Part shown: positions 22,098 to 47,500 of the stretch, piece by piece
Layout: the number at the start of each line of letters is the position of its first letter
Position numbering within the stretch: position 1 is the first letter of the stretch
From: Leptolyngbya sp. SIO1E4
Lineage (GTDB): Bacteria; Cyanobacteriota; Cyanobacteriia; Phormidesmidales; Phormidesmidaceae
NCBI GenBank assembly: GCA_010672825.2
Contig: JAAHFU020000001.1
Coordinates: 62,001-126,000 of the forward strand
DNA: 64,000 nt
Direction of reading: 5' to 3'
Program-made: the position numbers and the translations under genes
The notes under the pieces: generated by a model
Databases searched by the model: none
What the model saw: the letters and a program-made list of their open reading frames with translations, nothing else
Told to the model about the DNA's origin: nothing

Positions 22098-22622
22098 ATG
22101 AAACGCATTGCCCTCGCTTTAACTGCTTTGACCGCTGTCTCTATCGCGATCGCGCCTGCTGCCTACGCCACACCAGATTTTGATGAATTGCGCCGCGAAA
22201 ATCTCGATAAGGATGCCGTCAACTTCGACGAACTACGCAGAGAGAATCTGGACAAAGATGCGGTGGCTGAGATTCAGCTCAAGGCGATCGACTTTGATGA
22301 GCTACGTCGTGAAAACCTCGACAAAGACGCGGTCAATTTCGACGAACTGCGTCGCGAGAACTTAGATAAGGATGCCGTCGTGGAAATTCAGGTCAAAGCC
22401 GTTGACTTCGATGAATTGCGTCGGGAGAACCTGGATAAAGACGCGGTCAACTTCGATGAGCTACGTCGCGAGAATTTAGACAAGGATGCCGTCGTTGAGC
22501 TGCAGGTCAAAGCTGTTGACTTTGATGAACTGCGTCGGGAGAACCTGGATAAAGACGCTGTAGATTTCGACCAACTGCGTCGGGAGAACTTAGATAAGGA
22601 TGCCGTTGTTGAGCTGCAGTAA
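22098..22622 (+). CDS. Secreted tandem-repeat protein (FDELRRENLDKDAV repeats)
   Basis: 174 residues. Cleavable signal peptide MKRIALALTALTAVSIAIAPAAYA. The mature protein is almost nothing but eight copies of FDELRRENLDKDAV. They are arranged as four pairs; the first three pairs are followed by a short linker such as EIQVKAVD. The repeat is highly charged and predicted helical. At DNA level the copies differ mainly at synonymous positions, so the peptide is under selection and the array is not a recent slippage product. A good ribosome site (AAAGGAG) precedes the ATG. Function unknown; an extracellular or periplasmic structural or binding role is possible. It does not resemble a transporter or enzyme. 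Confidence 0.85.
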   Translation: MKRIALALTALTAVSIAIAPAAYATPDFDELRRENLDKDAVNFDELRRENLDKDAVAEIQLKAIDFDELRRENLDKDAVNFDELRRENLDKDAVVEIQVKAVDFDELRRENLDKDAVNFDELRRENLDKDAVVELQVKAVDFDELRRENLDKDAVDFDQLRRENLDKDAVVELQ

Positions 22623-22885: not shown

Positions 22886-22952
22886 CATCGGATATATCGG
22901 ATAAAGTCCACCCAAATTCCAGATGAGTTTTTACGTTAGTTATGCACATGCC

Positions 22953-23168
22953 CTAAATCATGGCCAGTGCCACAAGGATGGCCAACAAGATTCCAAGGAA
23001 CCCAGCAGCAGCCCCACCACGACCACCAACCGCCACATCGTGCCGGAAACCACATTGATGATCGAGACAGACATAGTCGCTGTCCCCATGCAAGACAACA
23101 GACGACTTGCCACAACGTGGACAAACCAATCTATCCTGCAGCAACTCTGGACGATATTGAACTGGCAT
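22953..23168 (-). CDS. Small zinc-ribbon protein with C-terminal membrane anchor
   Basis: 71 residues from the ATG at 23168, which has GGAGG five bases upstream; the ATG at 23180 is less suitable. N-terminal zinc ribbon: CPRCGKSS... and a second metal-binding pair around CLDHQCGF. It is followed by a glycine hinge and a single hydrophobic helix GFLGILLAILVALAMI at the extreme C-terminus, so it looks tail-anchored with the ribbon in the cytosol. Not recognised as a named family. It is divergent from the HTH gene at 23368. Confidence 0.7.
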   Translation of the reverse strand: MPVQYRPELLQDRLVCPRCGKSSVVLHGDSDYVCLDHQCGFRHDVAVGGRGGAAAGFLGILLAILVALAMI

Positions 23169-23367
23169 AAAAACCTCCATCGTGAGAGCAAGGTCGATGT
23201 TTATTACCTTTGACTAAACTATAACATAGCTTACCTAAATTATTTTAGGGTATTTTTTTTAGTAAAACTCTTCACGTAATCTTGTTTAGGCTTTATAATT
23301 TACACAAATTGCTTCACCTAAGAGGTGTTAGGATATTCCCTAAACTCAAGCAACACACGAGGTTTCA

Positions 23368-23841
23368 ATGGTTTGGGAGTGCAGATCAGCGATCGCAGCC
23401 TTGCGAGAGCAAAAGAATCTTACGCAACTCCAGTTAGCACAGGAGGTGGGAGTTACAGAAACGACCATTGCCAACTGGGAAAAGGGAAGAAGTGGTCTGG
23501 AGTGGATTGATCGTTTAATCCGACTGTGTGCCGCCCTGGAGTGCACCCCGGAAGATCTGATTCGGTATGTGCCTCGCATTGATGAAGGAGAGGGTCATAA
23601 TTCGCCCGGAGTCTTTAGTGAAATGCTTAATCTGATCGAGCATGGCAAAAGCACGACCTCATCATCATTAAGCAAAGAAGATATCGAACGTATTGAAAAA
23701 GACGGAGGTAAGTTTTCTGACATCATCAAACTAATTGGAGCCAATAAGGCTTGCAAACATGAATTTCCTTTTTCGCCTGATATGACTCTGTTCCAAGGAA
23801 CAACAGGTAAGCGGTTAGGTAAGAAATCTCGGGGAAAATAA
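23368..23841 (+). CDS. XRE-type helix-turn-helix regulator
   Basis: 157 residues. The N-terminal HTH_3 domain reads AIAALREQKNLTQLQLAQEVGVTETTIANWEKGRSGLEWIDRLIRLCAALECTPEDLI (residues ~8-65). The C-terminal ~90 residues are not recognised and end in a basic tail GKRLGKKSRGK. It is 141 bases upstream of the PIN-like/DUF1822 gene on the same strand and is the likely regulator of that gene pair. Cyanobacterial DUF1822/CHAT pairs often have a regulator or sigma-factor gene next to them (from memory); the link here is by position only. Confidence 0.85.
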   Translation: MVWECRSAIAALREQKNLTQLQLAQEVGVTETTIANWEKGRSGLEWIDRLIRLCAALECTPEDLIRYVPRIDEGEGHNSPGVFSEMLNLIEHGKSTTSSSLSKEDIERIEKDGGKFSDIIKLIGANKACKHEFPFSPDMTLFQGTTGKRLGKKSRGK

Positions 23842-23982
23842 AGGCTTAAGCGCTCTCTGGGTCTCTTAGAACGAGTAATTTGTTCAGGTGTTAAAGGCCA
23901 CTAATCTTTCGTCACTGATTAGTGTGTCCCTGTACCACTGCGGTAACAAGTCAGGTTCGCTCTACTACCAGTAAGAGAGCAT

Positions 23983-24966
23983 ATGAGAGTTCTAGTGCAT
24001 TTCCGTGTCTTGCGAGACACATTACTTAATTTCTTTGAAACCCCGCAACCCTGCGAACAGCTCGACAGAGTTGCGGAGGTTCTCAAAGGAAGAAATCCAG
24101 AAGTCTATGTTTCTGCTTGGGGGCTTCAAAGCATTCAACGAGATCTTGCTTACTATTGCTCACGCCCAGATGTTCCTTATAAAGTTGCTGAGATGCTGGG
24201 CCAATTTTTGCAGATAGCCCCCCTTTCCGAGCAAAAAAAGGTTGAAAACCTTGTTCATCTCCAAGGAACTGTACTTAGTCCTGAAACTTTCGAATTTCAT
24301 CAGGCATGTGAAATATCAGCAGATGCTATTCTGACTGGAAATCCTCGCTCATTTTCACAATTCAATCTGAGTGTTTCTTATCTAAGTCATCAAACAGATC
24401 TGAGTGCCATAAAACAAGTATCAATCATCAGTACCCTGCCAATTCTACTTGTTGGAGAGTTCTCCGATCTCTGGTTTTTAGTAGATTCCGCTCAGAAAAT
24501 AACTGGCTTAGTATGTCCTCCTCAAACTTTACACTCATCGCAGCCTGTCCTGACGCAGTGGTTACGAGATGATTGGTCACAACTCGGATGGTATCTGCCT
24601 AAAGAAGTCCCTGATCTATTCAGATCAAGAACTCCATGTAGAAAGAAAATCACCTCAAGAGTCAAGCTTATTCCAATCAGATCAGGCTCTCTTAAGAGTG
24701 AGGAAACTGTTGCTCTCAGTGTAGCAATAGAGAAAAGACATTTAACATATCAGGTTTCCATAGAGCTAACAGCTTCAATAATGGGTTACGTACTACCATA
24801 TCCATTATCGCTGAAAGTCATGGATGAGAATGGAAAATGTGCAATAGAGCAAAGCACACTTAATAAAACACGAATACAATTTGAAATTGAAGTTAAAAAG
24901 TCCGAAAAGTTTAGTGTTGTCATTGGAAATCGATCTTTCAAGCACAAGGAAGATTTCATCGTTTGA
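23983..24966 (+). CDS. Degenerate PIN-like domain / DUF1822 protein
   Basis: 327 residues. The N-terminus MRVLVHFRVLRDTLLNF aligns with PIN-domain starts (MRVLLDxNVLLDALL), but the first catalytic Asp is His6. A later ADAILTGNPRSFS keeps the typical PIN Asp. The C-terminal half fits DUF1822, a cyanobacterial family: QWLRDDWSQLGWYLPKEVPDLF, repeated beta segments, then MGYVLPYPLSLKVMDENGK and KSEKFSVVIG. No transmembrane segment. It lies 35 bases before the CHAT gene, so the two are probably co-translated partners. AT-rich and without HIP1 sites, unlike most neighbours. Function unknown; substrate or adaptor of the CHAT protease is an inference. Confidence 0.75.
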   Translation: MRVLVHFRVLRDTLLNFFETPQPCEQLDRVAEVLKGRNPEVYVSAWGLQSIQRDLAYYCSRPDVPYKVAEMLGQFLQIAPLSEQKKVENLVHLQGTVLSPETFEFHQACEISADAILTGNPRSFSQFNLSVSYLSHQTDLSAIKQVSIISTLPILLVGEFSDLWFLVDSAQKITGLVCPPQTLHSSQPVLTQWLRDDWSQLGWYLPKEVPDLFRSRTPCRKKITSRVKLIPIRSGSLKSEETVALSVAIEKRHLTYQVSIELTASIMGYVLPYPLSLKVMDENGKCAIEQSTLNKTRIQFEIEVKKSEKFSVVIGNRSFKHKEDFIV

Positions 24967-25001
24967 GATATATTCCATTGAATCCACAAGGAACCAAGGG
25001 C

Positions 25002-26657
25002 ATGAGTAAGCAAGTCATTTTAAGATTGAACCGGTCTCTGCTAGGCAGTTATGAAGTGATCGCTGAAATTGGCAAGAAAGGGGTAATGCATGATGAGATT
25101 CAAGCGTGTTTACCTGCTTTACCCATTGATATAAATCATACCCTTAGAAAATGGCGTGACTCTTTCAGAAGACTCAATTATTCGCGACGATTAAAGGTTC
25201 TTTCTGTAAATACAGAAAGTATATTACCTGACTCTATTTTAGGGTGCGAATCTTCTGAAACTCAATTTAACCAATTATCTAATCTTCTGACAGATCAAAT
25301 GCAAACATGGTTGAGGGCAAAAGAATTCCAGAAAGTCCTCTCTAGAATGAAAGAAGTGCTTAGCCTTAATGATGAAATTCAAATCATTATTCGTACAGAC
25401 GATGATCTAATTTTCCGTCTTCCTTGGCATCATTGGGAGTTTCCCAAGCAATATCACCTTACTGAAATTTCATTCAGCACATCCAGTCATAGTTACTCTC
25501 TGGTGCGAAACCAAGACTTAAAGCCTCTTCAGAGCCTGAAAATCTTAGCTATTTTTGGCGACGATATAGGAATCAACCTCAGACGAGATGAATCTCTTTT
25601 AGACAGCAATATACCCAACGGTTCAGATATTTTCCTCAAGAAGCTCCATAGACCTAGCAAAGAAAAGCTAGGAGAAGAACTGAGAGAGAACATGTGGGAT
25701 ATCTTGTTCTTCTCAGGACATAGTGAGAGCCAGCAAGGAAAAGGAATCTTATATTTAGAGGGTAGTCGCTCTATATATCTTGATGAACTCAAAGATGACC
25801 TAGAGACAGCTATTCATAAAGGACTTAAGTTAGCTGTTTTTAATTCTTGCGATGGTTTAGAATTAGCAAAATATTTACAGAATCTACAACTCCCTCAAGT
25901 AGTTGTCATGAGAGAGCCCATCCCAGATGAGATAGCGCATGACTTTCTAGCTGCATACATTGAGGGCATTCTTAAGTTATCTCCTGAAACTCCCCTATAC
26001 CTAGCCACTAGATATGCACGAGAGAAGTTAGCTCAAAATAGCCGTGTCCCTTGTGCAGACTGGTTGCCAGTAGTATTTCAGAATCATAAGGTTTTATCAC
26101 CTGTCAGAGGTATCATTTCTAATTCATATAAAAGGGAAAAGAAGCGGATAGAGAAGAAGCAACCTTTAGCAATTAGTTTTGAACCAAAACCGAAGGTCTG
26201 TAGAGTAATCAATACGCTGACTAAAAATACTGTTGGAAGAGTGCAGGTTGATGGAGTAGTATGGAGGGCTCAAATATTCTCTAATGATTACAATTCTGGG
26301 AAAGAAGAAACCATTTCTGCTGGAGCGAGTGCTTTAATGGTGGCAAGACGAGGAAACCTATGCCTGGTCTTGCCAAAGAGTGAAGAATTTCAGAACTATT
26401 CTCCAGCAAAGTCACAGAAAAAATTCTTCCAAACTTTCTTAGATCTTATGCCCAGAAAGATCACTCTAACTTCAGATAGCATAATTCATCTTATATTTTT
26501 CGGGATTTCATGCGCTTTAATGATTCTCTCAGTTACCTTGTTTAGGAGCATCCTATCCCAGCCCACGACTACAAATGGAAACAGGCAGATTTTTGTCTCA
26601 AAAGTATCATTCTGGACTCCCAATAAAACTCTTCAGAGTGATGTACTCTCTATCTGA
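25002..26657 (+). CDS. CHAT-domain protease with NfeD-like domain and C-terminal membrane segment
   Basis: 551 residues from ATG at 25002, preceded by AAGGA; a TTG at 24963 would overlap the previous stop. The N-terminal ~120 residues contain a conserved-looking NLLTDQMQTWL region, then a CHAT caspase-fold domain. The catalytic dyad is His240 in ILFFSGHSE and Cys283 in AVFNSCDG; DFLAAYIEGI and LATRYAREKL follow. Residues ~405-465 (GRVQVDGVVWRAQIFS...GNLCLVLP) resemble an NfeD OB-fold. One hydrophobic helix near residues 494-515 anchors it, leaving a short tail outside. Architecture CHAT-NfeD-TM suggests a membrane-tethered protease controlled by the upstream HTH and PIN/DUF1822 genes. Similar CHAT proteases act in bacterial immunity and in heterocyst control (HetF); the role here is open. 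Confidence 0.85.
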   Translation: MSKQVILRLNRSLLGSYEVIAEIGKKGVMHDEIQACLPALPIDINHTLRKWRDSFRRLNYSRRLKVLSVNTESILPDSILGCESSETQFNQLSNLLTDQMQTWLRAKEFQKVLSRMKEVLSLNDEIQIIIRTDDDLIFRLPWHHWEFPKQYHLTEISFSTSSHSYSLVRNQDLKPLQSLKILAIFGDDIGINLRRDESLLDSNIPNGSDIFLKKLHRPSKEKLGEELRENMWDILFFSGHSESQQGKGILYLEGSRSIYLDELKDDLETAIHKGLKLAVFNSCDGLELAKYLQNLQLPQVVVMREPIPDEIAHDFLAAYIEGILKLSPETPLYLATRYAREKLAQNSRVPCADWLPVVFQNHKVLSPVRGIISNSYKREKKRIEKKQPLAISFEPKPKVCRVINTLTKNTVGRVQVDGVVWRAQIFSNDYNSGKEETISAGASALMVARRGNLCLVLPKSEEFQNYSPAKSQKKFFQTFLDLMPRKITLTSDSIIHLIFFGISCALMILSVTLFRSILSQPTTTNGNRQIFVSKVSFWTPNKTLQSDVLSI

Positions 26658-32086: not shown

Positions 32087-35000
32087 ATGGAATTCGTGGT
32101 TGAAAAAGTCATCGATGCAGTTTTAGAGGCCTCCGGCATTAAGGAAAGAGTGGGTCGCAGTCAGCGGGTTATTCGCCTGCTGCGACGTTTTGGCCTGGAT
32201 TCCGTCGATGCTCTGACATCCTTTGAAGATATCTACGCCTATGCCCTGGTGGAATATGCCTTTGATGAAGCCGGGTTATGTAAGCCTGCGCCGCTGGTGA
32301 AGTTCTTTAAAGCAAAGGAAGTCCGAGCGCTGTTTCAGGCAGCCTATCGTGAGAATGATCCCCGGGAATGGTTGCGAAAGGGAGAAGCGATCGCTCAGTT
32401 CAAGCTGGGGAAACAGCTGCCAGGGCTCGACCCGAAACGGGAGCTAGGAACGTTCGCGGCGGTTTTTGTCGAAATCGTGAAACAAACGCGATCGCCCAAA
32501 GAGATCCGTCAAGACCAAAAACTCGACAGCCTGCAGCAACAGCTCCAATCCCTACAAACCCAAATCCAGCAGTTGCCGAGCCTGGAAGCCATCAATCAGC
32601 AGGTGACCCAGCTAGCAGGGGTTGAAACCTTGGCCCTTCCGGCGGCAGCCCAGACCAGTAACGCGGTGGATCTGGCCCATCAGCTCGGGGAATGGTTTGA
32701 GGTGCTGGACTATGACCGCGATCCCGATTACGAAGTTTGGACGACCGACTACTTTGAATGGATCATCAACTTTCCCCTGACCCGCCGAAAATTTTCTCGC
32801 ATTCTGGTGCGGGGGGTCGCGGGGGAAGTGGGCATGGCAGACCTGCACGGGTTCCAGCAAGCCATTGAAGAAACCGGAGCTGACGAAGGCTGGCTGGTAG
32901 GGAACCGCCGGATCAGTAAAGCTGCCCGCACCGCAGCTCAGCAGGATAGTACCTACGAAGACATCACCTGCTACACCTTTGATGAGCTGTTGGATGAAGA
33001 CGCTGACTTCAGCAAATATCTGGATTGGCTGGCGGCGGATATCAAGGTCAAGGGGGTAGATACAGGATATTTGCCGTTGGGCTGTCGTAAAGATGAGCTG
33101 GATCCGTTCAGCCAGCAGAAGATTGGCGTCAGCGTCTACGGAGAAGAAGATGGCTGGATTGACGGCTATGTAGATCAGTGGCTGGATGACCCGGCCAAAG
33201 AGCACCTATCCATTTTGGGGGAATTTGGCACCGGCAAAACCTGGTTTGCCCTGCACTATGCCTGGGTTGCACTGCAGCGCTATCAAGATGCCAAGCGACG
33301 TGGCATTGAGCGCCCCCGCGTGCCGATTGTGGTACCCCTGCGAGACTATGCCAAGGCCGTAACGGTCGAATCTCTATTCTCTGAGTTCTTTTTCCGCAAG
33401 CACGAGATTCTGAAAACCTATTCCGTTTTTGAGCAGCTAAACCGCATGGGCAAGCTGCTGTTGATTTTTGATGGGTTTGATGAAATGGCGGCACGGGTAA
33501 ACCGGCAGGCCATGATTGACAATTTTTGGGAGCTGGCGAAGGTGGTGGTGCCGGGGGCAAAGGCCATCTTGACCTGCCGGACTGAGCATTTTCCAGATGC
33601 GATTGAGGGGCGTCAGCTGCTGAATGCGGAGCTGCAGGCATCTACAAAAAACCTGACCGGAGAACCGCCCCAGTTTGAAGTGCTGGAGCTGGAGAAGTTT
33701 AGTGACGGGCAAATCGCAGAGTTGCTAGGGCACAAGGCGCAAGAGCGCACCGTGCAGGAGGTGATGGGCAACCCGCAACTGCTGGATCTGGCCCGACGTC
33801 CGGTGATGGTGGAGCTGATTTTAGAAGCCCTGCCGGAGATTGAGGCGGGGAAACCGGTGGATATGGCGCGAGTATATCTCTACGCGGTAACCGCCAAGAT
33901 GGAGCGGGATATCAAAAGCGATCGCACATTCACCTCCCTTGCAGACAAGCTCTACTTTTTGTGTGAGCTGTCCTGGGAAATGCTGTCGAGCGATCGCATG
34001 AGCCTCAACTATCGAGCGTTTCCAGAGCGGCTGCAGCAATTATTTGCGGATCGGGTGAAGGAAGAGAAAGAGTTGGACCACTGGCGCTACGACATGATGG
34101 GCCAGACGATGCTAATCCGCAATTCGGAGGGGGACTACAGCCCAGCGCACCGATCGCTGCTGGAGTTTTTTGTGGCGTACAAGATTGTAGCGTCGCTGGG
34201 GGCGATGGCGGAGGATTTTACGGAGGTGGCGCGGCGGCAGTCGCATTTGGATGAGGCAGCAACGCCTCAGGGATATACGTGGGATGGGTATTTCCGAAGA
34301 GAGTGTGATGAAGCGGGGGTACCTGAGGCGATCGCACCGTTGAATCAGTTTGAGAGTATGGCCTTCGATGATTTGCTGCCGCTGTTGAGTGAGGCGAAGT
34401 TGGCCAGAGCAATATTAGATCTGGCGTATCCGATGTTGGATCAAGATACGATGCTAGAAAAACTTTTGCCGTTGTTGTGGGCAACACAAGAGAAACCCCT
34501 AGGAAAAATCGGTTACCTGGGGGGTAATGTGACTCAGCTGATGCTGGCCCAAAGTCCTTATGCTTTAGTAGATAATGACCTGAGCGGTACAAAGTTGCTA
34601 GGAGTTGATTTCACTGAAACCTATTTACACCGGGTGAACTTCCAGGGTGCTCATTTAACAGAAGCTATATTTTCCAAATCAATAGGCAGTGTTAACACCT
34701 TGGCGTTTAGCCCAGCAGAACCTTATCTTGCAATTGGTGATAGTAAAGGAAGCGTACAAGTTTACGATGTTGAAACTAAACAAGTTATTTTATTGTGTTC
34801 GGGCCATTCAGATTGGGTGAGATCTATCGCCTTTAGCACAGATGGAAAGACTCTTGCATCGGGCGGTAGTGACAGGACCTTAAAGCTGTGGTCAATGGAC
34901 AGTGGCAATTGCATTCGTACCTTCAAAGGTCATACAAGAGGAATTTCGTCTGTCGCTTTTAGTCCAAATGGAGACGTCATAGCATCGAGTGGTAATGACA

Positions 35001-36544
35001 AGACTATAAAGCTGTGGTCGACGGTCACCGGCAATTGTATTCGCACTATTGAAAGTCATTTAAAGGGGGTTTCATCAGTTGCTTTTAGCCCAAACGGAGA
35101 CGTTTTAGCATCGAGTAGTAACGATCAGACTATAAAGCTGTGGTCAATGGACAGCGGTGATTGTATCTCTACTCTCGAAGGCCATTTAAGCTGGGTAAGA
35201 GCCATAGCCTTTAGTCCGGATGGGGAGACCTTGGCATCGAGTAGTAATGACAAGACTATAAAGCTATGGTCGATGGCCACGAGGAATTGTATTCGCACCC
35301 TTGAAGGTCATTCAGCTTGGGTTAGGTGTGTTGCCTTTAGCTTAGACGGAAAGATCCTTGTTTCTGGCAGTGGCGATAGTACAGTCAAGCTATGGTCGAT
35401 GGCTAACGGCAAGTGTATCAGTACTCTCAAAGGTCATTCAAATAGGATTTGGTCCGTCGCCATTAATCCGAATGGAAAGGTCTTAGCATCCGGTAGCTAT
35501 GCTAACACTGTTAAGTTTTGGTCAATTGCAGAAGGAGATTGCATCGGTACTCTCAAAGGTCATTCAAATAGGATTTGGTCTGTCGCTTTTAGCCCAGATG
35601 GGAAAAAGATAGCCTCTTGTAGTGATGATAAAACCATAAAGCTATGGTCTACAACAAGTGGCAACCATATCCGCACCTTCGAAGGCCATTCAGATTGGGT
35701 TAGATCCATTGCCTTTAATCCAGATGGAAAGACCCTAGCTTCAAGCAGTAACGACCAAACCATAAAGTTGTGGCTGATAGCCAGCGGCGATTGTATCTGC
35801 ACCTTCGAAGGTCATTCAAACTGGGTTAGATCCGTTGCTTTTAGCCCAGATGGAAAGACTCTGGCTTCCGGCGGTGAAGACCAGACTGTGAAGCTGTGGT
35901 CAATAGTCAGTGGCAACTGTATCAGTACCTTCCAAGTTCATTCACACAGGGTCTGGCCTGTTGCCTTTAGCCCAGATGGAAAGATTCTAGCCTCCGGCGA
36001 TGATAACAAGACCGTAAAGTTATGGTCGATAGCCAGTGGTGACTGTATTCGCACTTTTGAAGGTCATTCAAACTGGGTTAGATCCGTCACTTTTAGCCCA
36101 GATGGAAAGACCCTGGCTTCGGGCAGCGATAATAAGCTCGTGAAGCTGTGGTCGATAGCCAGTGGTGATTGTATCCGCACTTTTGAAGGCCATTCAGATG
36201 GGGTTAGGTCTGTCGCCTTTAGTCCGGATGGGCATACCCTAGCCTCAAGCAGTAGTGATAAGAAAATTAAGTTATGGTCAATAGCTAATGGCAACTGTAT
36301 CCACACACTCGAAGGCCATTCGAATGGTGTTGGCTCAGTTGCGTTTAGCCCGGATGGAAAGATTTTGGCATCTGGCAGTTATGACGAAACAGTAAGGCTC
36401 TGGAGTATGAAAACAACTGAATGCTTGAGAGTAATCGACGATCGCGTATGTGCTGGAATGGATATTACCGGCACAATGGGGCTGACGGCGGGGCAGCGGA
36501 CGGCACTGAAGTTGATGGGAGCCGTTGATAAGGCAGAAGGATAA
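32087..36544 (+). CDS. NACHT NTPase with N-terminal nuclease-like domain and 14 WD40 repeats
   Basis: 1485 residues. Residues 1-~110 are an alpha-helical domain seen at the front of cyanobacterial NACHT proteins. Residues ~140-165 look coiled-coil (Gln/Leu-rich). Residues ~200-310 (FEVLDYDRDPDYEVWTTDYF, RILVRGVAGEVGMADLHGF, RRISKAARTAAQ, CYTFDELLDEDADF) resemble a restriction-endonuclease-like fold. NACHT follows: Walker A GEFGTGKTW with Lys384, Walker B LLLIFDGFDEMA with Asp462. A short pentapeptide-like stretch (DLSGTKLLGVDF...VNFQGAHL) precedes 14 WD40 repeats of 42 residues (868-1445). The tail CAGMDITGTMGLTAGQRTALKLMGAV is the usual ending of such proteins. Probably a STAND-type sensor whose WD40 part recognises a ligand and whose N-terminus is the effector, as in anti-phage systems; target unknown. 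Confidence 0.9.
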   Translation: MEFVVEKVIDAVLEASGIKERVGRSQRVIRLLRRFGLDSVDALTSFEDIYAYALVEYAFDEAGLCKPAPLVKFFKAKEVRALFQAAYRENDPREWLRKGEAIAQFKLGKQLPGLDPKRELGTFAAVFVEIVKQTRSPKEIRQDQKLDSLQQQLQSLQTQIQQLPSLEAINQQVTQLAGVETLALPAAAQTSNAVDLAHQLGEWFEVLDYDRDPDYEVWTTDYFEWIINFPLTRRKFSRILVRGVAGEVGMADLHGFQQAIEETGADEGWLVGNRRISKAARTAAQQDSTYEDITCYTFDELLDEDADFSKYLDWLAADIKVKGVDTGYLPLGCRKDELDPFSQQKIGVSVYGEEDGWIDGYVDQWLDDPAKEHLSILGEFGTGKTWFALHYAWVALQRYQDAKRRGIERPRVPIVVPLRDYAKAVTVESLFSEFFFRKHEILKTYSVFEQLNRMGKLLLIFDGFDEMAARVNRQAMIDNFWELAKVVVPGAKAILTCRTEHFPDAIEGRQLLNAELQASTKNLTGEPPQFEVLELEKFSDGQIAELLGHKAQERTVQEVMGNPQLLDLARRPVMVELILEALPEIEAGKPVDMARVYLYAVTAKMERDIKSDRTFTSLADKLYFLCELSWEMLSSDRMSLNYRAFPERLQQLFADRVKEEKELDHWRYDMMGQTMLIRNSEGDYSPAHRSLLEFFVAYKIVASLGAMAEDFTEVARRQSHLDEAATPQGYTWDGYFRRECDEAGVPEAIAPLNQFESMAFDDLLPLLSEAKLARAILDLAYPMLDQDTMLEKLLPLLWATQEKPLGKIGYLGGNVTQLMLAQSPYALVDNDLSGTKLLGVDFTETYLHRVNFQGAHLTEAIFSKSIGSVNTLAFSPAEPYLAIGDSKGSVQVYDVETKQVILLCSGHSDWVRSIAFSTDGKTLASGGSDRTLKLWSMDSGNCIRTFKGHTRGISSVAFSPNGDVIASSGNDKTIKLWSTVTGNCIRTIESHLKGVSSVAFSPNGDVLASSSNDQTIKLWSMDSGDCISTLEGHLSWVRAIAFSPDGETLASSSNDKTIKLWSMATRNCIRTLEGHSAWVRCVAFSLDGKILVSGSGDSTVKLWSMANGKCISTLKGHSNRIWSVAINPNGKVLASGSYANTVKFWSIAEGDCIGTLKGHSNRIWSVAFSPDGKKIASCSDDKTIKLWSTTSGNHIRTFEGHSDWVRSIAFNPDGKTLASSSNDQTIKLWLIASGDCICTFEGHSNWVRSVAFSPDGKTLASGGEDQTVKLWSIVSGNCISTFQVHSHRVWPVAFSPDGKILASGDDNKTVKLWSIASGDCIRTFEGHSNWVRSVTFSPDGKTLASGSDNKLVKLWSIASGDCIRTFEGHSDGVRSVAFSPDGHTLASSSSDKKIKLWSIANGNCIHTLEGHSNGVGSVAFSPDGKILASGSYDETVRLWSMKTTECLRVIDDRVCAGMDITGTMGLTAGQRTALKLMGAVDKAEG
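36430..36540 (+). repeat. Direct repeat, left copy (NACHT-gene tail)
   Basis: The last ~110 bases of the NACHT gene are repeated at 37270-37386 with about a dozen mismatches, flanking the VapBC-type pair. Confidence 0.9.
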
Positions 36545-36856: not shown

Positions 36857-37264
36857 ATGAAGTATCTACTAGACACCAATGTTTGTGTCGTGTATCTGAA
36901 GGGAAACTCTTCTAACGTTCGAGAGAAGCTTCATGCAGTTCCGTTAGAAGACGTTGCGATATGTTCAGTTGTAAAAGCAGAGCTTTTATATGGCGGAAAA
37001 CGGAGCAACAATCCAGAGAGGACGTTAGAGAAGCAAAGAGCCTTTCTCAATCAGTTTGTATCTCTGTCATTTGATGATGCAGCAGCTGAATTTTACTCGG
37101 ATGTTCGTGCCAGCCTAGCAAAGCTTGGAACACCCATTGGATCGAATGATTTACAAATTGCCTCAATTGCTTTGGCAAGCAACCTGACGCTTGTTACCCA
37201 CAACATCAGAGAGTTCAAGCGCGTTGAAGGATTGCAATTGGAAGATTGGGAAGCAGTGGGTTAA
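36857..37264 (+). CDS. vapC: VapC-type PIN-domain toxin
   Basis: 135 residues with all expected PIN acidic residues: Asp6 in YLLDTNVCV, Glu42 in VVKAELLYG, Asp98 in IGSNDLQIASIA, and the closing VTHNIREFKRVEGLQLEDW. It is a metal-dependent RNase that typically cleaves tRNA or rRNA when released from VapB. The fold is intact, so it is probably functional. It is inserted with its antitoxin between two copies of the NACHT tail. Confidence 0.92.
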   Translation: MKYLLDTNVCVVYLKGNSSNVREKLHAVPLEDVAICSVVKAELLYGGKRSNNPERTLEKQRAFLNQFVSLSFDDAAAEFYSDVRASLAKLGTPIGSNDLQIASIALASNLTLVTHNIREFKRVEGLQLEDWEAVG

Positions 37265-46018: not shown

Positions 46019-47500
46019 ATGTTTAGAACGGATGCATCTTCAAGATCTGTGACACTCACCCCTTTGCCCAATTGGGCGACCGTCCAAGCTCGCCTCAAAG
46101 AAATCTGGGGCTATGCCCACTTTCGGCCCCCTCAAGACACGGTAATTCAGTCTCTACTGCAGCGGCAGGACGCACTGATCATTCTGCCGACGGGGGGCGG
46201 TAAATCACTCTGTTTTCAACTCCCCGCCTTGCTACAAACCGGGGTGACGTTGGTTGTTTCACCCTTGGTGGCGCTGATGGAGAACCAGATTCAAGAGCTG
46301 CGTCAGCTGCACCTACCCGCCGCCACCTTGCACAGCGAACTGCCCAAGCAAGCACGCTATCGCGTCTTCAAAGCCCTGGAACGACAGCAACTGCGCCTGC
46401 TATATCTCTCCCCAGAAGGGCTGCTAAGTCAACCAGTTTGGGAGCGTCTGATAGCACCGACCCTCCGCATCAATGGGTTAGTGCTCGATGAAGCCCACTG
46501 TTTAGCCCAGTGGGGGGAGACGTTTCGCCCTGCCTATCGGCGCTTAGGGATTGCCCGACAAGCTTTGTTGTCTGCGAAGCCTGAGGGCACTCAGATCCCA
46601 ATTGCCGCATTCACTGCCACGGCGGATCCCACGGCTCAGCAAGTCATTCGTCAAACCTTACAGCTCACCGCGCCTAAAGTCATACGACTGAGCCCCTATC
46701 GCCCCAATCTTGACCTCACGATCCAGACGGTCTGGACGCCCCGAGGGCGACAGCAAGCGCTTCTCAAATTCATCCAGCGGCATTCTCAATACACGGGGTT
46801 GGTGTATGTGCGGACTCGTCGCGACAGCGAGGGCATTGCGGATTGGTTAAGCCAGAAAGGTTACCGAGCGACGGCCTACCATGGGGGGCTACCGGCCCGC
46901 GATCGCCGCCATCGAGAACAGGCTTGGATTCAGAATGACGTTCAAGTAGTTGTGGCCACGAATGCCTTTGGGATGGGGGTTAACAAGCCAGATCTCCGCT
47001 GGGTGGCCCATTTCCATGTGCCCTGCCTGCTCACAGAATACGTGCAGGAAATTGGCCGGGCGGGACGAGACGGGCAGCCGGCTCAAGCCCTTTCACTGGT
47101 TAGCGAACCCACCGGGTTATTTGACCCGACGGATCGCCAGCGATCGCAATTTTTTCGCAGCCAGGCGCAGAAACTGCAGCAAAAAGCAGCGCAACTGGCC
47201 ACCCAAATTCCCCAAGCAGGAACGATTCAAGCGGTGCAGCAACAGTGTAAGGAAGGGGCGATCGCCCTCTCCTATCTGCACAGTCAGGGGCGACTAGAAT
47301 GGCAAGACCCCTTCCGGTATCGCTTGTCCCCTGGAAAACTCTCCTCAAGGGGGTCTGCAGCAGAGCCAGAGAAAGCCATGAATCGGTTTCTTCACAGCCG
47401 CGACTGCCGCTGGCGCTTAATCTTGGAGCAGTTTGGCTTTCGCCAGGACGCCCAGCAACTGGGCAAGTGTGGCCACTGCGATAACTGCAGGCGGTGCTGA
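46019..47500 (+). CDS. recQ: RecQ-family ATP-dependent DNA helicase
   Basis: 493 residues. Walker A LPTGGGKS (residues 56-63), DEAH box LVLDEAHCLAQWGETFRPAYRRL with the RecQ aromatic loop, SAT-like AAFTATADPTA, motif V VVATNAFGMGVNKPDLRWVAHFH and motif VI QEIGRAGRDGQ. The zinc-binding end is reduced to CRWRLILEQFG...KCGHCDNCRRC. There is no HRDC domain and the winged-helix part is short, so it is a compact RecQ. Unwinds DNA 3'-5' in recombination and repair. HisA follows 35 bases later. Confidence 0.93.
   Translation: MFRTDASSRSVTLTPLPNWATVQARLKEIWGYAHFRPPQDTVIQSLLQRQDALIILPTGGGKSLCFQLPALLQTGVTLVVSPLVALMENQIQELRQLHLPAATLHSELPKQARYRVFKALERQQLRLLYLSPEGLLSQPVWERLIAPTLRINGLVLDEAHCLAQWGETFRPAYRRLGIARQALLSAKPEGTQIPIAAFTATADPTAQQVIRQTLQLTAPKVIRLSPYRPNLDLTIQTVWTPRGRQQALLKFIQRHSQYTGLVYVRTRRDSEGIADWLSQKGYRATAYHGGLPARDRRHREQAWIQNDVQVVVATNAFGMGVNKPDLRWVAHFHVPCLLTEYVQEIGRAGRDGQPAQALSLVSEPTGLFDPTDRQRSQFFRSQAQKLQQKAAQLATQIPQAGTIQAVQQQCKEGAIALSYLHSQGRLEWQDPFRYRLSPGKLSSRGSAAEPEKAMNRFLHSRDCRWRLILEQFGFRQDAQQLGKCGHCDNCRRC

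Follow-up and report, generated by a model that had tools for sequence, protein, structure and literature searches.

A conserved XRE-PIN/DUF1822-CHAT gene module in Leptolyngbya sp. SIO1E4, a variant of an already predicted system

The window considered here is a stretch of 64,000 nt from the 8.2-Mb genome of Leptolyngbya sp. SIO1E4 (G000). It contains three same-strand genes that encode an XRE regulator, a middle protein with a degenerate PIN domain and a DUF1822 C-terminal domain, and a CHAT protease. Together they form a conserved module. The module, its palindromes, the domain swaps among the loci examined, and an internally repeated motif in the XRE tail are established by sequence comparison. 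An initial annotation of the window presented the genes as a candidate undescribed signalling or defence system. The word undescribed does not fully apply, as a system of an ECF sigma factor, DUF1822, and an EACC2-caspase, the sigma-type parent of this module, was predicted in 2021 according to passages of PMC8195603. The module is a new variant of that system, whose predicted role is in bacterial suicide or immunity.

Conservation of the module and its exchangeable parts

Seven cyanobacterial genomes from three sequence lineages carry the XRE and PIN/DUF1822 genes. Six of them also carry the CHAT gene; in the seventh (G259, locus L131) the contig ends after the middle gene. Gene order is kept in two further lineages and throughout clade 1, which comprises the window, L054 (G049), L055 (G045), and L056 (G050), at 27-57% identity to the window proteins. 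The three families are thus linked across genomes, and the absence of linkage that the initial annotation had allowed for is not borne out. Among 388 genomes of the same class, the middle-protein profile matches at full length in four (G000, G045, G049, and G050, where the gene is broken by a stop), and XRE matches over the entire profile, including the tail, occur only in G000, G045, G049, and G050. Some match to the middle profile at E <= 0.001 is found in 114 of the 388, at most listed places through the DUF1822 part.

The XRE profile (E <= 1e-10) reaches 54 of the 388 genomes at 70 listed places. The neighbourhoods of 20 such places added XRE-PIN/DUF1822-CHAT loci in G085 (L130) and G181 (L137), and in eight of the 20 XRE is immediately followed by a PIN-like gene (profile A2). 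In named genomes, 26 XRE loci came from a scan that revisits some of these places; 16 of them have a PIN-like gene directly downstream. Carriers with names are Nodosilinea sp. LEGE 07088 (L150), Phormidium sp. FACHB-1136 (L151), and plasmid unnamed4 of Nostoc sp. UHCC 0870. In the Nodosilinea locus (L056/L150), the middle gene is split by a stop and the CHAT gene is shortened, and the module appears to be decaying. In tblastn searches, the CHAT protein finds 42 plasmid records, with the Nostoc sp. UHCC 0870 plasmid first-listed, and the middle protein finds no plasmid match.

The middle protein matches DUF1822 in Pfam at residues 211-326 only (26.3 bits, cut-off 25), which supports the DUF1822 assignment of the initial annotation for the C-terminal part. 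A profile from seven DUF1822 proteins of sigma-type loci matches the same part with E 1.3e-14. At the N-terminus, no PIN model is found in Pfam at E <= 1, and the PIN identity is backed by profile comparisons. Three orthologues aligned with the N-terminus of L165, which itself scores 59.1 bits against PIN_3, reach a profile-profile probability of 95.9 over 119 columns. A profile of eleven N-termini, the window among them, finds L130 (3e-39), L054 (3e-28), L137 (8e-26), and the stand-alone PIN ORF (open reading frame) L095 (1e-25), none of which is a row of the profile. The L137 protein combines PIN_3 (34.4 bits, cut-off 27) and DUF1822 (49.1 bits, cut-off 25) in one chain, and its database record reads PIN domain-containing protein. 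PIN_3 is over and DUF1822 under cut-off in L130, both are under in L131/L166, and L151/L055 shows DUF1822 at 34.0 bits and no PIN match. By sequence, the N-terminus of the middle protein is a PIN fold. A PDB sequence search with the PIN-DUF1822 profile returned two weak matches (E 0.27 and 0.84).

Catalysis by PIN domains depends on conserved acidic residues. The first Asp, reported as lost in the initial annotation, is indeed His in all four members of clade 1 (His6 in the window, L054, and L055; His in L150/L056), and it is kept in 8 of 11 aligned XRE-linked PIN rows. All 11 rows have another residue at the Asp position of the L095 TRD..F motif, and some keep the Asp of the DFE motif. The PIN domain of the middle protein is very likely without nuclease activity.

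The two halves of the middle protein keep different company. After two window-type loci and one PIN-only locus were dropped from 28 fetched DUF1822 loci, none of the remaining 25 matched the PIN profile; L078 and L088 match the DUF1822 profile at the C-terminus alone. A sigma-like gene lies upstream in 21 of the 25, XRE in none, and CHAT lies downstream in 19. The upstream gene is XRE in 7/7 PIN/DUF1822 loci, a set found partly through its XRE genes (Fisher 8e-7 for 7/0 vs 0/21, related genomes being treated as independent here and below). The sigma-like profile was drawn from six loci, and L058, L057, and L060 recur as L069, L073, and L082 among the 21 positives. In Pfam the sigma-like genes are weak: L049 is over cut-off (29.3 bits), L050 and L059 are under, and L057 and L052 have no match.

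At the other end, the sigma-type DUF1822 profile recovers the C-terminal domain in all six module PIN proteins (E 1e-14 to 1e-22; the split protein of L056 lies outside this set) and in none of 16 other XRE-PIN proteins. CHAT accompanies 5/5 resolvable XRE-PIN loci with the DUF1822 C-terminus and 0/16 without it (Fisher 6e-5 for 5/0 vs 0/15); several of the 16 are close relatives of one another, and the L165 sequence stops 239 bp past its PIN gene. Some of the proteins that the CHAT profile (A6) finds also contributed to its construction. Across the loci examined, the middle protein behaves as two modules by sequence, with PIN travelling with XRE and the DUF1822 C-terminus with CHAT. This swap of halves together with their partners is new here. 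It fits the adaptor part of the role first suggested for the protein.

Regulator, palindrome, and divergent gene

The first gene encodes an XRE regulator, as initially annotated, with an HTH_3 score of 45.5 bits over the Pfam cut-off of 23. In PADLOC it matches HTH-bearing models over its HTH (RmrA, capH, HTH_VI, and others; best E 2.4e-7), and a PDB sequence search matches HTH repressors and repeat proteins. Behind the HTH of the XRE proteins lies a short motif, roughly [ST][FL]x[ED]-hydrophobic-x-x-[LM][ILMY]. A position-specific scoring matrix (PSSM) was built from twelve PIN-only XREs, whose own tails match it by construction; in L055, L056, L130, L131, and L137 its two top-ranked hits are copies of the motif. 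A test that uses no motif model, in which the best internal 10-residue repeat is compared with shuffles, finds the tail internally repeated in 7/7 CHAT-type modules (p 0.001-0.031) and at p<0.05 in only 1/12 non-CHAT tails (L152). The best repeat falls just before the motif in L137 and is shifted within it in L054. XREs without an adjacent PIN are a poor control for the motif: it is weak in two and strong in one (L167), and two tails are too short. The CHAT-type XRE tail thus carries a short predicted helix motif, repeated internally, which is new here.

A 16-bp palindrome, CCTAA-N6-TTAGG, stands twice in the gap between XRE and a divergent zinc-ribbon/transmembrane (TM) gene. The whole of the window's own genome holds it in three places, two in this gap and the third between two convergent ORF ends, against 61 for the reversed control. 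The looser CCTAAA-N(3-6)-TTTAGG occurs there in four places, one at the module. All seven modules carry the palindrome within 220 bp upstream of XRE (17 bp in L130/L131). The strict form CCTAAA-N4-TTTAGG occurs once each in G049 and G050, at the module, and one of two occurrences lies at an XRE gene in G045 and G189. More widely, 16 of 28 XRE-like upstream regions bear the palindrome, compared with 6 of 699 non-XRE regions, all six of them divergent from an XRE-like gene. Of ten XRE homologues with no PIN recognised immediately downstream, one (L132) has it and nine are negative: L136, L138, L139, L140, L142, L143, L146, L147, and L167. Two of these homologues without PIN, L136 and L147, have a different upstream palindrome, CCTTAAAGTTTTAAGG.

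From this distribution, the most likely targets of the regulator, through a putative operator, are the operon that encodes it and the divergent gene, with few others. A distant regulon sought with the palindrome in the own genome was not found. In the own genome the palindrome is almost confined to this promoter, so the expected output is one of the module's products, the protease or the zinc-ribbon/TM protein, rather than a set of remote genes. The promoters themselves are only suggestive, since a scan of the region gave fewer sites (5) than shuffles (7.9).

The zinc-ribbon/TM gene is divergent from XRE in the window, L054, L055, and L056. Its L055 copy scores 25.2 bits against Zn_ribbon_NUD (cut-off 24.8), and the window copy, with 17.4 bits, is under cut-off. 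The gene is not exclusive to the module: matches at E <= 0.01 occur in 49 of 143 genomes, the own genome included, and L188 holds an apparent orphan, judged by eye. An ORF at 22923-23213 (+) was rejected as its antisense. The place of the zinc-ribbon gene is taken in L130 (8568-8924) and L131 (4957-5256) by a different small divergent protein (RSDYRRLVKL...) that contains a hydrophobic segment and matches no Pfam family over cut-off. In three Nostoc XRE-PIN loci (L160, L161, and L164) the divergent gene is CyanoTRADDas_TM (52 bits, cut-off 24.3), and palindromes lie inside the gap between it and XRE. By its name, CyanoTRADDas_TM ties the XRE-PIN family to the TRADD-N network that passages of PMC8195603 describe. 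RTX (HemolysinCabind) repeats are found in XRE-linked proteins of L140 and L155 and in the divergent neighbour of L144.

CHAT protein, locus, and neighbourhood

The CHAT domain scores 34.4 bits (cut-off 24), and the His240/Cys283 dyad, intact as first described, is invariant in 10/10 aligned proteins. The window protein is by these features a caspase-superfamily peptidase with its His/Cys pair intact. CHAT proteins of XRE-type and sigma-type loci align from the N-terminus through the dyad, and the part after the peptidase varies: TM in the window, NfeD-like in L054 and L130, pentapeptide in L137, and CHASE2 in the sigma-type L050. The NfeD-like OB fold named by the initial annotation is plausible and not established, with 13.0 bits in the window, 24.7 in L054 (E 2.7e-5), and 16.6 in L130, all under the cut-off of 29.1; Pfam does not report NfeD for L055 or L137. 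The N-terminal region common to CHAT-CHASE2 proteins is here equated with EACC2 on the basis of alignment with those proteins, not of an EACC2 model or the source alignment. The single membrane helix annotated in the window protein is recognised by eye, as is one in L055. A PDB sequence search gives no match for the CHAT protein. The own genome has 49 CHAT matches, 14 of which, together with three DUF1822 genes, lie in about 80 kb at G000:C4:713398-794037.

The three genes lie where the initial annotation placed them (Table 1), separated by 141 and 35 bp. Orthologue alignment favours the ATG at 25002 as the CHAT start; counted from there, the gap is 35 bp and the dyad is numbered His240/Cys283, both as in that annotation. 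Its account of the genes stands; the divergent zinc-ribbon/TM gene and the palindromes were left out of it. The XRE, middle, and CHAT genes have GC contents of 0.458, 0.405, and 0.388, the lowest among the 41 window ORFs of at least 150 aa (mean 0.538, SD 0.048), in agreement with the AT-rich block noted at first. Likewise, one of the 74 HIP1 sites of the window falls inside the block, at 23389. The middle and CHAT genes have GC 0.38-0.43 in all four clade-1 hosts, with flanks of 0.53-0.57, and the L130 module is GC-rich (0.61-0.64).

Table 1. Coordinates of the module and its features in the window.
Feature	Position	Strand	Remark
Zinc-ribbon gene, 71 aa, CPRCGK...CLDHQCGF, hydrophobic C-terminal helix	22953..23168	-	ORF 22953-23180
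Putative operator 1, CCTAAATTATTTTAGG	23234..23249	.	Overlaps weak promoter-like -10 on minus strand
XRE promoter-like site TTCACG-17-TATAAT	23271..23299	+	10/12 matches
Putative operator 2, CCTAAGAGGTGTTAGG	23317..23332	.	About 18 bp downstream of XRE promoter-like -10
XRE/HTH_3 regulator gene, 157 aa	23368..23841	+	HTH_3 45.5 bits
XRE tail motif copy 1, FSEMLNLI, aa 83-90	23614..23637	+	Missed by PSSM
XRE tail motif copy 2, FSDIIKLI, aa 116-123	23713..23736	+	Also ranked by PSSM
Middle gene PIN-DUF1822, 327 aa	23983..24966	+	ORF list
Degenerate PIN domain, about aa 1-125, His6 replaces first Asp	23983..24357	+	Profile comparisons
DUF1822 C-terminal domain, aa 178-326	24514..24960	+	Profile E 1.3e-14; Pfam 26.3 bits
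CHAT protease gene, 551 aa	25002..26657	+	ATG start; TTG at 24963 also open
N-terminal region common to CHAT-CHASE2 proteins, here equated with EACC2	25002..25511	+	Alignment A6
CHAT catalytic pair	His240 codon 25719-25721, Cys283 codon 25848-25850	+	Invariant in 10/10
NfeD-like region	26226..26360	+	NfeD 13.0 bits, under cut-off 29.1
Transmembrane helix IIHLIFFGISCALMILSVTLF of CHAT protein	26481..26543	+	Read by eye

The neighbours of the module include known defence genes. In G049 PglX (1618 bits) and BrxC (1479 bits) flank the module; PglZ follows (a partial ORF scores 400.7 bits; L176 has a 912-aa ORF), and a transposase-like gene, named by eye, is also present. On contig 2 of G049 (L054 and L176), the four-gene module is seen amid the BREX genes PglX, BrxC, and PglZ. 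The next gene in G181 is MkoC-like (281.5 bits). In G045, a NERD-UvrD gene (305 bits) follows CHAT by 1.4 kb, and Cas7e, Cas8e, and Cas3 are found at a distance of about 14-21 kb. Relaxase genes stand beside the copy on the Nostoc sp. UHCC 0870 plasmid, and ParD/ParE is about 5 kb away. PADLOC neighbour scans covered G045, G049, G181, and the window, and the flanks of G050 and G085 were covered by gene listing.

Among 36 window ORFs at E <= 1e-10, PADLOC finds HEAT-ARM_XIII in two members and helicase-type models (DpdF, PsyrT, and others), which are ascribed to a RecQ-like gene at 46019 from a tally without member names. One HEAT-ARM_XIII match is a 1485-aa protein 5.4 kb from the module (32087-36544 (+), 167 bits); the ORF after it, 36857-37264, looks like a VapC-type PIN by eye. 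No Cas family other than 'poss. alt. Cas3' was matched by these 36 ORFs, and no search was aimed at Cas7-11 or arrays. On the other side of the module, at 22098-22622 (+), lies a secreted-looking 174-aa protein built of imperfect FDELRRENLDKDAV repeats.

The defence role suggested at the outset therefore has neighbours such as BREX, MkoC-like, and CRISPR-Cas genes in its favour, and against it the PADLOC result of no family at E <= 1 for either the middle or the CHAT protein. The argument is one of guilt by association, made from the neighbours alone (BREX, a Mokosh-like helicase, CRISPR-Cas, and CyanoTRADDas_TM).

Proposed mechanism and comparison with known systems

A tentative reading, to which we would give slightly less than an even chance, is that the module is a self-regulated CHAT-protease switch derived from a toxin-antitoxin system, with the dead PIN linking repressor to protease. 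It draws on the co-variation of the halves and on the Craspase precedent. Bound at the two CCTAA-N6-TTAGG sites, XRE would keep both the operon that encodes it and the divergent zinc-ribbon/TM gene repressed. In the middle protein, the dead PIN would receive the tail helices of XRE, much as VapC receives an antitoxin tail, and the DUF1822 C-terminal domain would dock on the CHAT protease, so that the middle protein would link repressor and protease. On a signal detected at the membrane or through the OB part, CHAT would become active and cut the adaptor or the XRE tail. With repression lost, levels of the module's own products would rise, and an invaded or stressed cell might stop growing or die.

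Several observations weigh against this switch. The window neighbourhood resembles ordinary chromosome. Just 8 of the 16 loci of the XRE-PIN-only kind show the palindrome, which is also present at L132, where no PIN is recognised; the strict form lies away from the module in G085 and G181. In the window XRE, the PSSM ranks the second motif copy first (p 0.05) and misses copy 1, and in L054 it picks the second copy alone, not significantly (p 0.29). Action at the membrane, proposed by the initial annotation, agrees with the helices of the window and L055, but it is not general because no TM helix is evident in L054 and the L130 and L137 proteins carry other C-termini. Finally, the neighbours examined are those of 28 of many DUF1822 matches and 20 of 70 XRE places.

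A wider reading, possible but held more loosely, is that across cyanobacteria dead VapC-like PINs act as exchangeable adaptors that dock an XRE repressor, itself self-regulating, to interchangeable outputs. The repressor would bind CCTAA-N6-TTAGG and carry a short PIN-docking tail helix. Outputs would be the DUF1822-CHAT protease, pentapeptide, RTX-repeat, and other C-terminal domains, and divergent small membrane proteins including CyanoTRADDas_TM. The CHAT version would have doubled its tail helix in three separate lineages, so that several adaptors and proteases might assemble on a single repressor dimer: a toxin-antitoxin pair turned into a proximity-activated bacterial caspase switch.

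The module might instead be a stress or developmental signalling protease that uses CHAT as HetF does, in a physiological response and not in immunity or death. The ordinary look of the window neighbourhood, the weak HetF match, and the 49 CHAT matches, which indicate broad CHAT use in the organism, speak for this alternative. It is nonetheless somewhat doubtful, given the patchy presence of the full-length middle protein (4/388 genomes), a HetF score of 28 bits against a cut-off of 1200, and the places of other CHAT-bearing loci: among these five, that of G181 is on a named plasmid beside the MkoC-like gene, that of G049 is inside BREX, and that of G045 shares its contig with CRISPR-Cas. Less probable still is a plain toxin-antitoxin or addiction module that maintains its element, with CHAT or the small TM protein as toxin and XRE plus PIN-DUF1822 as antitoxin complex. 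A nearly unique palindrome, a plasmid copy beside relaxase genes with ParD/ParE about 5 kb off, and low GC in all four clade-1 hosts would suit it, but a two-part adaptor with separately swapping halves exceeds what an antitoxin needs, the copies of the window and L130 sit on 2.7-Mb and 5.5-Mb contigs, respectively, and the L130 module is GC-rich. That PIN is still an RNase effector with CHAT merely its activator is very improbable, since the first Asp kept in most aligned rows and the DFE Asp kept in some are set against the clade-1 His and the TRD..F Asp replaced in every row. A chance neighbourhood of unrelated genes found no support and is refuted by the gene order kept in clade 1 and two further lineages.

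Should the protease switch be real, a toxin-antitoxin pair would have been rebuilt as a protease-gated immune or death switch, with the killed toxin as connector. It would suggest jobs for two nameless halves, PIN docking the regulator and the DUF1822 C-terminus docking CHAT. The finding also defines a precise palindrome in the DNA and a motif in the tail, and with the four-gene cluster the 2021 DUF1822/EACC2 prediction becomes testable.

In VapBC and XRE-PIN type II toxin-antitoxin systems, a DNA-binding protein with a short tail helix adjoins a PIN protein, the pair has its own operator and is sometimes found on plasmids, and the VapB antitoxin tail docks on VapC. The module resembles them in an XRE with a tail helix that adjoins a PIN, in its putative own operator, and in being sometimes plasmid-borne. 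Unlike theirs, its PIN active site is degenerate, with His6 for the first Asp and the TRD..F Asp lost, and the domain is fused to others. With HetF, a cyanobacterial CHAT protein, it shares the CHAT region (the 28-bit match is to the NCBIfam CellDiv_HetF equivalog, far under its cut-off), whereas architecture and neighbours differ.

Craspase (type III-E Csx29-Csx30-CASP-sigma) likewise combines a CHAT protease, an adaptor, and a transcription regulator, and passages of PMC10028731 report proven CHAT cleavage of an adaptor that holds a transcription factor. Such holding and cutting of the adaptor is proposed likewise for the module. No Cas7-11 was noticed at the module, in a survey with no search aimed at it. 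In those passages CASP-sigma motifs lie at several promoters, whereas the regulator of the module, an XRE, has a palindrome that hardly occurs in the own genome outside its promoter.

The closest comparison is with the ECF sigma/DUF1822/EACC2-caspase system. As far as passages of PMC8195603 describe it, both have a DUF1822 gene adjoining a caspase-superfamily (CHAT) gene with a regulator gene beside, and a CHAT protein with a common N-terminal region and a variable C-terminus. These passages mention neither XRE nor PIN with DUF1822. The module differs in having XRE instead of a sigma-like gene (7/7 modules), PIN instead of the DUF1822 N-terminal part, and OB/TM in place of CHASE2, and in its additional divergent zinc-ribbon/TM gene.

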